Source of the DNA: Verrucomicrobiota bacterium
Lineage (GTDB): Bacteria; Verrucomicrobiota; Verrucomicrobiia; Chthoniobacterales; Terrimicrobiaceae
Assembly: GCA_026398255.1 (NCBI GenBank)
Contig: JAPLTG010000032.1
Location: 62,001 to 126,000, forward strand
Direction of reading: 5' to 3'
DNA: 64,000 nt
The translations under genes and the position numbers were made by a program. The number at the start of each line of letters is the position of its first letter. The first letter of the stretch is position 1. The notes below the pieces were generated by a model, which saw nothing but the letters and a program-made list of their open reading frames with translations, made no database searches and was not told the origin of the DNA. Shown one piece after another: positions 17,578 to 40,646 of this stretch.

Positions 17578-17673
17578 GGGAGGAAAGGGTAGTCCTTGGT
17601 TTCGGATGGCCGCAAGGTCGCTCTCGATTTTTGGCTATCAACACGGGGAACGATTTGGTTTTTTCGGTCGCTG

Positions 17674-18801
17674 ATGTTTTCGACTCTCCCATGCCGTTCG
17701 TTTGTTTGCCTAGCGGTTCTGTCGGCCGTTCCCATGGTTTTTGCGGAGCCCGTGGTGGCTCCCGCTGCAAAAGTCGCCAAACCTTCTCCCGATGCGCCGG
17801 AGAGGATTCAGATGACGCGAGTGCAGATTTTTTTGGATCGCTCGGGATTTCGGCCCGGCAAAATTGATGGTCTTGGCGGGGAGTTCACCCAGAAAGCCGC
17901 TGACCGGTGGTGCGATGCGCAGGGGGTCGTTCGTGGATCCTTCCTGGATGTCACCTCGATCGCAGAACCTTATCGCACACACACGATCGGCGAGGAGGAT
18001 GCGAAATGGGTCGGACCCACTTCGTCGAAACCCTCGGAGCAATCGAAGCTGAAGGCATTGCTTTACGGAAGTCTCTGGGAGGCTTTGGCCGAGCGGTTCC
18101 ATTGCGATCTGATTTTTCTGAAGGAGCTCAACCCCGGGGTTTCGGAGCCTACTGTCGGGATGGTTTTGCGCGTTCCGGATGTGGAGGAGTTCCGGATGGA
18201 TGATGTCAAAGCCCTGCAAAAAGCCCGCGCGAATGGCACTGCTCAGGCGTTGCCTGTCTCTACTCCGGCGCCGGAGGCCGCTCCGATCCCTCCTTCTCCC
18301 TCTCCGCAAATCGTCAACGAGGCGGATTTCTTTACGAATGGAAGCCCGGCAACTCCCGAGCCTGCGAAGCCAACTCCGACGGCCACGCCGGTGCCGTCGC
18401 GTCGTTTGGTTTTGTTACGGGACGAGCGCTTGATCGAGTTCTACGAAAACGACCGGATCGCCGGGTGTTTCCCGTGCACTCCGGGGTCCGCGAAGTTCCC
18501 TGTGCCGCTGGGAACTTGGCGCGTGACGAGCAACATCCTCATGCCGAATTTTCGTTGGGACAAATCGGTTCTCGAGACCGGCGTGCGCAGCAACAATGCC
18601 TTCCTTCTTCCTCCAGGTCCCAATAGCCCTGTGGGCATCGTGTGGATGGGAATCAACCGGCCCAGCTTGGGAATGCACGGCACGAATTCCCCCGACCGCA
18701 TCGGGCGCAATGAAAGCAGTGGCTGCATCCGCCTTGCGAATTGGGACGCCTTCCGGCTTTGCCAATTGGTGAAAAGCGGAACCGCGCTGGAGGTGCGCTG
18801 A
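17674..18801 (+). CDS. L,D-transpeptidase (YkuD domain), secreted
   Basis: An exported enzyme that can make 3-3 cross-links in peptidoglycan or attach proteins to it. Residues 1-24 form a signal peptide ending MVFA. A short region resembling a peptidoglycan-binding repeat follows (RVQIFLDRSGFRPGKIDGL), then a Pro-rich linker (about residues 205-255) and the C-terminal YkuD domain. The catalytic motif is intact: HGTNSPDRIGRNESSGCIRL contains the His, the Ser-x-Gly-Cys and the Arg. The start at 17674 is chosen for the signal peptide; the frame is open 78 bases further upstream. The gene is convergent with the DUF3352-like gene, one base apart. Confidence 0.85.
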   Translation: MFSTLPCRSFVCLAVLSAVPMVFAEPVVAPAAKVAKPSPDAPERIQMTRVQIFLDRSGFRPGKIDGLGGEFTQKAADRWCDAQGVVRGSFLDVTSIAEPYRTHTIGEEDAKWVGPTSSKPSEQSKLKALLYGSLWEALAERFHCDLIFLKELNPGVSEPTVGMVLRVPDVEEFRMDDVKALQKARANGTAQALPVSTPAPEAAPIPPSPSPQIVNEADFFTNGSPATPEPAKPTPTATPVPSRRLVLLRDERLIEFYENDRIAGCFPCTPGSAKFPVPLGTWRVTSNILMPNFRWDKSVLETGVRSNNAFLLPPGPNSPVGIVWMGINRPSLGMHGTNSPDRIGRNESSGCIRLANWDAFRLCQLVKSGTALEVR

Positions 18802-38043: not shown

Positions 38044-38071
38044 AAATCCCCAGTCTTGATCTTGGGGATTT
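38044..38071 (+). repeat. Perfect inverted repeat (9-bp arms) after csrA
   Basis: Arms AAATCCCCA and TGGGGATTT enclose a 10-base loop. The hairpin lies 37 bases after the csrA stop and could end the flagellar operon, but no run of T follows, so it is not a textbook intrinsic terminator. It overlaps the TTG that begins the longest frame of the downstream PBP. Confidence 0.6.
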
Positions 38072-40646
38072 GAAGTGGAAAAGTCCTGCCATCAGTAAAG
38101 ACCTCTACAGTTGGGAAAAAGCGAAGCCTGAGCGCAGCGTGCCGCTCTACACCCGCAAAATCGTATGGATGCCAGTCGCCGTGCTGGCAATCGGAGCTTT
38201 CGCCGCCTGGGTGGTTTTTGGAATCTTAACGAGCCAATACAAAGACCGCGCCGAGGAGTTCGATCTCAAGCAGGTCACAGAAATGGAAGCCGCCTCCGTG
38301 CTCTACGACCGCGAGGGCCGGGAATTCGGAAAAATTTTTATCCAAAATCGGCAACCGGTGAACTACGAGCGTCTCCCACAAGCCCTCGTGGACGCTGTCA
38401 TTTCGGCCGAAGACAATCGGTTTTACTCCCACACGGGCGTCGACTACATGGGCATCTTTCGAGCGGCGATCACGAACTACCTTCAAGGCCGCATTGCCCA
38501 GGGAGCGAGCACCGTCACCCAGCAACTGGCGCGAAATTCCTTCGAACTCCGCGAGCGCACCTACGAGCGCAAACTCATCGAATTGTATCTCGCCTGGCGC
38601 ATCGAGAGGAATTTCTCGAAGCGGGAAATCATGGGGGCCTACCTCAATCGCGTTTACTTCGGCAGCGGTTTTTACGGCGCCGAGGCTGCCGCGCAGGGGT
38701 ATTTTGGAAAAAATGCCATCGACCTCACAATCGGACAGTGCGCCACCCTGGCGGGACTTTTAAAAAGCCCGAACGCCCTCTCACCATTTAACAACCCCGA
38801 GGGATCGAAAGCCTCGCGCGATATCGTCCTTCAAAAAATGCGCGAACTCGGATTCATCAGCCGAAAGGAATTCGCCGAGGAGACCGAGTCATCGCTAGGC
38901 GTCGTGAAGCGCACAAACCCTTTCAAGACTGGCTATGCTCAAGAACTCATCCGCCAGCAGGTCATCAAAGCTCTCGGTTTCGAGCGGGCGATGAACGGGG
39001 GCTACCGCATCGACACCACGCTCGACATCGACCTCCAGCGTGCCGCCGAAAAGGCCACGCAGGACATTCTTTTAGAGGTGGAATCCCGCCCTGGCTACAA
39101 CCACCCCACCTTTGCCGAATACCGCGCTACCACGGCGAAACTGGAGGAAGACATCAACCGCGGAAAAATGTCGGTGAAAATGCCCGAGCCGAAATACCTC
39201 CAAAGCGCGACGATCGCGGCTGACAACGCCACCGGCGGCATCCTCGCCCTCGTCGGGGGTCGCGATTTTCGCCACAGCGAATACAATCGCGCTGTGCAAG
39301 GAACCCGCGCCGCCGGCACGGCATTCACCCCCTTTGTTTACACCGCCGCTTACGCCGCTGGCGTATTCCCCGGCGAACTCGTCCAAGACGCCTGCATCGA
39401 TAACCGATATGTCATGGTCGGTGGCGAGACGGGCATTCTCGGCGAGTGGGGAGTGGAAACCGCCGAGAACGAATATGAGGGATCCATCCCCACGCGCGAG
39501 GCTCTCCTCAAAGGGAAAAATGCCGCGACCGTCCGACTCGGAATGAAAATCGGCTTGGACAAAGTGATCGAGACCGCCACCGCCGCAGGATTCACCTCGC
39601 CGCTCCGCGACTATTCGAACTCCTTTCTCGGCAGTAGCGAGTTCTCCCTCGACGAACTCGTCCTCAGCTACACGATTTTTCCAAACACCGGCCAGCGCCC
39701 CGCGAGTCTCCATATCATACAAAACATCAAAGATTCCGACGGCCAATCGATCTTCAGCGCGCCTCGCAAGCGCTACAGTGCCCTCTCCCCGACAGCCACC
39801 TACCAAGTCCACTCGATCCTTTCCGAATACATGGAGAAAGGCCAAGGCGCCGCCGCCTTCTCGCAATTCGGCCTACCATCGATTCCGGTCGCTGGAAAAT
39901 CCGGCACCGCCTACGGCTTCACCGACACCTATTTTGTCGGCTACACGAACCGCGTCACCTGCGGCGTGTGGGTTGGTTTCGACAAGCCCATGAAAATTTT
40001 TCGCGGCGCCTTCGGCAAGGATTTGGCCCTGCCGATCTGGTCAAAAATCATGGCTGCCACTTTGAAATCCTTCCCGCCTTCTGCGATCGAGCAACCTCGA
40101 GGTCTGAAAACGGTCGAAGTCTGCCGCGCCTCCGGTCTCCTCGCGACCCCGCGCTGCCAGCCCAAATCCTCCTCAAATCCAGCCCCAGCCTCGACGAGCG
40201 AATCGGATTCCACCCAACCCCTCAGTGTTTATCAGGAACTCGCCTCCGAAGAACAAATCCCAAAAATTTCCTGCGACATTCATGGAGGCGGCATTCGTTC
40301 CTACACCAGAGAATTTGAGCAGGAAGACTGGCCACGCGCCGCTTCCGCCATTGATCTCAGCAAGATTCGTCCCGTCGCCGTCATCTCGCCGGCTTTGACG
40401 GGCTACAATGACATCTACCGCTCCGTGAGGCCCGGAGAGGGAAGCGACAATGACGACAGCATTCCCGTCGCCAAGGCAATCCCGGTAAATGTTCCTCCAC
40501 CCGCCTCCGAAGCCGTGGATGGCTCGCAGTCTTTTCCCGCCGATGTCGAAGTTCGCCGCGCCGAGCCCGTGGACTCCACCGCCGCACCATTCGAAGCCCC
40601 CGCCCTGGAAGCCGCCCCGCCCGATCCGATTCAATTTTTCAATTAA
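38070..40646 (+). CDS. Class A penicillin-binding protein with degenerate transpeptidase site
   Basis: An 858-residue bifunctional-type PBP. A membrane helix near residue 32-52 precedes a GT51 glycosyltransferase domain that polymerises glycan strands. Its motifs are intact: SAEDNRFYSHTGVD (catalytic Glu), QGASTVTQQLARNSF and MGAYLNRVYFGSGFYGAEAA. The transpeptidase domain is recognisable (KSGTAYGFTDTYFVGYTN keeps the KTGT motif), but the SxxK motif reads TAFT (expected in the PGSSFKPF position) and the SxN motif reads GKN. Transpeptidation is therefore doubtful. The tail from about residue 690 is Pro/Ala-rich and acidic. The first codon is TTG and lies inside an inverted repeat; a GTG at 38139 may be the real start. 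Confidence 0.85.
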   Translation: MKWKSPAISKDLYSWEKAKPERSVPLYTRKIVWMPVAVLAIGAFAAWVVFGILTSQYKDRAEEFDLKQVTEMEAASVLYDREGREFGKIFIQNRQPVNYERLPQALVDAVISAEDNRFYSHTGVDYMGIFRAAITNYLQGRIAQGASTVTQQLARNSFELRERTYERKLIELYLAWRIERNFSKREIMGAYLNRVYFGSGFYGAEAAAQGYFGKNAIDLTIGQCATLAGLLKSPNALSPFNNPEGSKASRDIVLQKMRELGFISRKEFAEETESSLGVVKRTNPFKTGYAQELIRQQVIKALGFERAMNGGYRIDTTLDIDLQRAAEKATQDILLEVESRPGYNHPTFAEYRATTAKLEEDINRGKMSVKMPEPKYLQSATIAADNATGGILALVGGRDFRHSEYNRAVQGTRAAGTAFTPFVYTAAYAAGVFPGELVQDACIDNRYVMVGGETGILGEWGVETAENEYEGSIPTREALLKGKNAATVRLGMKIGLDKVIETATAAGFTSPLRDYSNSFLGSSEFSLDELVLSYTIFPNTGQRPASLHIIQNIKDSDGQSIFSAPRKRYSALSPTATYQVHSILSEYMEKGQGAAAFSQFGLPSIPVAGKSGTAYGFTDTYFVGYTNRVTCGVWVGFDKPMKIFRGAFGKDLALPIWSKIMAATLKSFPPSAIEQPRGLKTVEVCRASGLLATPRCQPKSSSNPAPASTSESDSTQPLSVYQELASEEQIPKISCDIHGGGIRSYTREFEQEDWPRAASAIDLSKIRPVAVISPALTGYNDIYRSVRPGEGSDNDDSIPVAKAIPVNVPPPASEAVDGSQSFPADVEVRRAEPVDSTAAPFEAPALEAAPPDPIQFFN

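Follow-up and report, generated by a model that had tools for sequence, protein, structure and literature searches.

A conserved class A PBP lineage of the Verrucomicrobiia with an intact glycosyltransferase and a probably non-catalytic transpeptidase domain

The 64,000-nucleotide stretch analysed here (the window) is part of contig JAPLTG010000032.1 of a Terrimicrobiaceae genome and carries, on the forward strand, a gene for a class A PBP homologue with a pseudo-transpeptidase domain (38091..40646; the ORF as called spans 38070-40646). The order of parts is that of a class A PBP: an N-terminal membrane segment, predicted by eye from the sequence at about residues 30-52 (38157..38225), a GT51 glycosyltransferase (GT) domain of residues 88-257 (38331..38840; Pfam PF00912, E=5.4e-62), a domain homologous to PF00905 transpeptidase (TP) domains comprising residues 381-627 (39210..39950; E=1.1e-15) and a C-terminal tail of ~190 residues (40068..40643), in which C685, C696, C735 and H738 are conserved in 112-113 of 114 clade sequences. 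The GT51 domain has the catalytic Glu and the conserved motifs found in bifunctional class A PBPs; E114, D115 and E171, among other catalytic residues, are invariant in all 75 sequences checked. The TP domain has the third, KTG/KSG motif of a bifunctional enzyme and lacks both the SxxK and the SxN motif. Along the gene, the sequence GTAFTPFVY (39315..39341), with T417xxT420 in place of SxxK, is followed by a clade-specific insert, D444-N-x2-V-x2-GG-x2-G-x-LGEW-x2-E463 (39399..39458), by GKN where SxN is expected (39513..39521) and by the retained KSGT (39897..39908). An AlphaFold2 model of residues 61-700, built from the single sequence, reached a mean pLDDT of 34 and was set aside.

The only canonical start codon of the ORF in the window is TTG at 38070, and the orthologues point to ATC at 38091. 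An N-terminus of the form I-[SAR]-x3-Y-S-W-E is conserved in families f1, f9 and f13, with ATC, ATA or ATT as the Ile codon, and several orthologues have no in-frame ATG, GTG or TTG after the preceding stop; in the relatives L037, L069 and L071, an ATG stands at the matching place. A Shine-Dalgarno-like GGAAAAG (38077..38083, forward strand) recurs in the orthologues as TGGAARA or GTGAAARA (GGAARA-like), 8-9 bases upstream of the ATC, ATA or ATT. In the genus alignment, the GGAARA-like element and the Ile codon are separated by a one-base indel, which a start further upstream could not tolerate. On all these grounds, we place the likely start at ATC 38091. A conserved non-canonical AUC/AUA/AUU codon thus appears to open the gene and its orthologues; examples of such orthologues are L008, L016, L026, L027, L038, L041 and L043, and the corresponding segment of the window is 38077-38093. 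Comparable non-AUG starts are known for infC and pcnB. If true, such a start would predict low, IF3-sensitive expression.

A first-pass annotation of this DNA had reported that both the nucleophilic Ser and the general-base Lys of the SxxK motif are replaced by Thr and that the second motif reads GKN, and both observations are borne out by the codons and by alignment. T417 is encoded by ACG (39318-39320), T420 by ACC (39327-39329), G482 by GGG (39513-39515), N484 by AAT (39519-39521) and K610-S-G-T by 39897-39908. In phmmer alignments with solved PBP1A/1B chains, QGTRAAGTAFTPFVY falls on the SxxK motif, where these chains have GSSFKPF, GSTIKPF, GSSIKPF, GSTMKPL or GSLAKPA, while LLKGKNAAT (KGKN) aligns with SxN and GKSGT with KTG. 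The annotation had named another Ser-x-x-Lys placed in the active site as one observation that would overturn its reading. No alternative SxxK is found in the TP domain; the only such strings of the protein, at residues 14-17 and 55-58, lie near the N-terminus or the transmembrane segment and so leave the reading in place. The view that the GT domain and KSGT are intact likewise agrees with the Pfam match, the invariant GT residues and K610-S-G-T. The expected insensitivity to beta-lactams is plausible, since the Ser and the Lys are both missing.

The host genome (2.6 Mb) encodes exactly two GT51 proteins, the window protein and a paralogue, termed here paralogue B (648 residues; G000:C42:189442-191331). 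The two share the GT51 and TP domains and ~40% identity, but paralogue B keeps GSVIK (SxxK), SRN and KTGT, has no GGxxGxLGEW and, in this family, is shorter and without the C-terminal tail. Three further TP proteins resemble class B PBPs and keep SxxK, SxN and KTG, so that the genome holds four intact TP proteins besides the one in the window, together with two FtsW/RodA (SEDS) proteins and eight YkuD proteins. The enzymes to which cross-linking had been assigned in the first reading are hence present; the YkuD protein cited there at 17674 corresponds to ORF 17596-18801. A contig search of the genomes with the locus gave a single match, a 98% identical genome. The window gene is preceded by flgK, flgL, fliW and csrA and followed by genes for an aldehyde dehydrogenase and a histidine kinase. 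At 27 further loci, some from the order and some from beyond it (for example L058, L063, L089 and L094), the upstream neighbour is a divergent gene whose product, judged from its sequence, resembles MidA/NDUFAF7-type SAM methyltransferases and which is absent beside the window gene. Since it is this methyltransferase-like gene that stands upstream in other families and orders, and the flagellar and csrA neighbours are not conserved, the flagellar linkage is local and a general coupling to flagella was rejected.

The comparison with orthologues proposed in the annotation showed that the replacements are no local accident: they recur throughout the family and its order, and in a second order as well. 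GT[AVI]F[TV]P and GKN are found in every family orthologue that covers the sites, in all five genera. Counted from the match table, 134 of the 147 sampled genomes of the order have an orthologue at E <1e-150; the protein lacked any match in two reduced 0.9-Mb genomes of the order (G031 and G040). With the exception of one genus, Thr occupies the nucleophile position in the orthologues retrieved from across the families of the order and from two families outside it, f33 and f15. For instance, the orthologue of A. muciniphila ATCC BAA-835 (L099; f15, G227) has GTAILP, SKI and KTGT, and the second class A PBP of this strain (L102) is intact. Because Akkermansia belongs to f15, we take f33 and f15 to represent a second order, the Verrucomicrobiales. 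Relatives of Akkermansia also encode a third GT51 protein of ~600 residues without TP motifs (L104 and L109 of f15, G227:C1:1490251-1491252 and L217), which has GAAFEP or GFLFVP at the SxxK site and in L104 and L109 adjoins the intact class A PBP. Two additional class A PBP-like proteins, L211 (G205:C1) and L212 (G285:C4), from f33 and f15, combine GTAFLP and GGxxGxLGEW with the loss of KTGT as well (GWGGTAYG and GFSGSSYG), and we regard them as cases in which the same lineage has decayed or specialised further.

In a tree of 144 sequences (114 from the clade and 30 intact paralogues) calculated without the motif columns, the 114 group together in a single clade that excludes the paralogues (SH-aLRT 100), and a careful tree of 56 rows, from which the insert columns were also removed, supports this clade at 100/99; many of the compared sequences derive from metagenome-assembled genomes. 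Position 417 is Thr in 105 and Ser in 9 of the 114 clade sequences versus Ser in all 30 paralogues, and position 420 is Lys in 34 of the 114 versus 30 of 30; at position 482 the clade has Ser 77 times, Gly 36 times and Ala once. The other class A PBP encoded by these genomes thus keeps SxxK throughout (30/30), along with SxN and KTGT. A minimum of two changes is needed at 417, Ser to Thr at the base of the clade and, on a reading that presupposes parsimony, Thr back to Ser in genus g30. All nine orthologues of this genus (L060, L084 and L141-L147) have the Ser codon AGC at 417, eight with complete SxxK, SxN and KTG motifs and one with SxxL, and the genus nests within a TxxK subclade; amid Thr sequences, the catalytic motif seems to have returned here naturally. 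Family f6 and genus g23 are subclades that retain TxxK, SxN and KTGT. Because the Lys persists in 34 of the 114 sequences and SxxK is back in one genus, some members of the clade may have retained or regained catalysis.

Within the clade there are 23 changes at position 420, versus a TP-domain mean of 18.9, one at position 417 and none at K610, G612, G451, G455 and E459; K610 and G612 are found in all 114 sequences. In most of the clade, selection therefore does not act on the general base. The TP domain as a whole has a dN/dS of ~0.03 between close orthologues, compared with 0.02-0.05 for the GT domain, and percentage identity drops with distance alike in the clade and in paralogue B; by these measures, the TP domain is under purifying selection as strong as that on the GT domain. 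The insert DNxxVxxGGxxGxLGEWxxE, between the first and second motif, is near-invariant: each position is conserved in 109-114 of the 114 clade sequences, a few members (L093 and L094) deviate by one or two residues, and it occurs in none of the 30 intact paralogues. As a DNA pattern, GGxxGxLGEW gave 52 matches in 387 genomes of the phylum, nearly all of them in genomes of the window's own order, f15 and f33, versus four for a reversed control pattern. A Tyr at position 615, directly after KTGTA, is also clade-specific (106/114; Asn or Asp in the paralogues).

The window protein resembles several known systems without matching any of them. With the PBP1A family (TIGR02074; PDB 4oon) it shares GT51, the linker, the PF00905 domain, KTG and a collinear alignment, but it lacks SxxK and SxN, carries the clade-specific insert and, at 483.3 bits, scores below the curated cut-off of 508.75 for this subfamily. 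Monofunctional peptidoglycan glycosyltransferases (TIGR02070) would have the same predicted output, glycan polymerisation only; they have no TP domain, whereas the window protein retains one under selection and scores 143.7 bits against a cut-off of 182.65. A precedent for a class A PBP polymerase that can function with an inactive transpeptidase comes from S. aureus, in which PBP2a makes up for a PBP2 whose TP domain is dead (S398G), so that there, too, the GT of a class A PBP supplies strands that another enzyme cross-links (PMC7617827). However, this is a laboratory mutant or a drug-inhibited state that needs the acquired PBP2a, as opposed to the natural, lineage-wide loss in the present clade. 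With PBP1 S487A, C. difficile can still septate while growth fails (PMC12539705), which suggests that such cross-supply depends on the organism.

Taken together, the sequence comparisons make it likely that the protein is a glycan polymerase whose transpeptidase has turned into a conserved non-catalytic domain, with cross-links made in trans. An ancient duplication in the Verrucomicrobiia would have given two class A PBPs, one of which kept SxxK, SxN and KTGT. In the other copy, the nucleophilic Ser would have changed to Thr once, after which the general-base Lys was presumably lost repeatedly and, in the lineage of the window, the Ser of SxN as well; the TP domain would meanwhile have been kept and remodelled, with the GGxxGxLGEW insert and KTGTAY, as a non-catalytic module. 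In the mechanism proposed here, lipid II would be polymerised by the GT51 domain of the membrane-anchored protein, and Ser-acyl transpeptidation, formation of an acyl-enzyme and penicillin binding would be absent. The pseudo-domain would most likely hold the stem peptides of the emerging strand or dock a partner transpeptidase or regulator, and cross-linking would be carried out in trans by paralogue B, class B PBPs or YkuD enzymes. The earlier description as a glycan polymerase only is consistent with the intact GT51 domain and with the dead transpeptidase motifs of the orthologues. It left out the conserved dead domain and the clade-specific insert and is therefore incomplete; TP conservation equal to that of the GT domain and the invariant insert argue for a retained non-catalytic role.

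That Thr417 itself serves as the nucleophile, so that the transpeptidase still cross-links, would fit the near-invariance of position 417, with its single change within the clade, the retention of K610-[ST]-G-T and the TxxK, SxN and KTGT motifs of f6 and g23. However, 80 of the 114 sequences have lost the general base and its site is unconstrained; both points argue against a Thr-based enzyme. Even in the TxxK/SxxK subclade of f6, K420 is not clearly above average TP conservation (2 changes versus a mean of 3.8, 46th percentile), and the window protein lacks both Lys420 and Ser482; Thr417 may persist as a helix N-cap, and we consider a Thr nucleophile very unlikely. The freely drifting position of the catalytic Lys could also be read as a sign that the TP domain is a decaying remnant and the protein in effect a monofunctional glycosyltransferase, and L211 and L212, paralogues in Verrucomicrobiales-like families, have lost KTGT in addition. 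This we think unlikely, though the least so of the alternatives, in view of a dN/dS in close pairs equal to that of the GT domain and of an insert, K610 and G612 that are invariant across two orders.

A mainly structural or regulatory scaffold, in which neither domain would be catalytically relevant in vivo, is suggested by the probably weak start codon, with the low expression that this implies, and by the presence of another class A PBP and two SEDS polymerases in the genome; but the invariance of E114, D115, E171 and other GT residues would be unexpected were GT activity dispensable, and the scaffold seems to us about as improbable as a Thr nucleophile. Nothing was found in favour of a sequencing error or a local pseudogene, which the identical replacements in all site-covering family orthologues and throughout the order, together with purifying selection, already refute and which has practically no chance of being correct. 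Our preferred reading of a polymerase with a non-catalytic TP domain gains from the same loss being conserved across two orders, as this suggests that the dead half has probably been kept for a non-catalytic task. More tentatively, and with slightly less than even confidence, we hypothesize that the transpeptidase was repurposed lineage-wide into a non-catalytic domain for sensing or docking, through which glycan polymerisation is controlled and cross-linking is directed in trans. The insert would be the part of this domain that does the work, and the catalytic Ser would have come back naturally in one genus.

In the open literature on class A PBPs with inactive transpeptidases and on PBPs of Verrucomicrobia and Akkermansia, we found no earlier description of the clade, which is weak evidence as most subscription papers lay outside this scope; Atwal et al. 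classed Akkermansia simply as retaining a class A PBP (PMC8406291). In Verrucomicrobium spinosum, the peptidoglycan is canonical and contains tri-tetra and tetra-tetra dimers, all three COG0768 PBPs are essential, and targeted mutagenesis and TraDIS are established; no passage on the class A PBPs of this species was found in the study (PMC12283558). Non-catalytic roles of TP domains in class A PBPs are usually studied with point mutants, and here a naturally dead domain occurs beside an intact paralogue. With a dead transpeptidase across two orders and one genus that is back to Ser, such a role would be directly testable in tractable species. To count every class A PBP of A. muciniphila and its relatives as a beta-lactam target or cross-linker is probably to overcount them.
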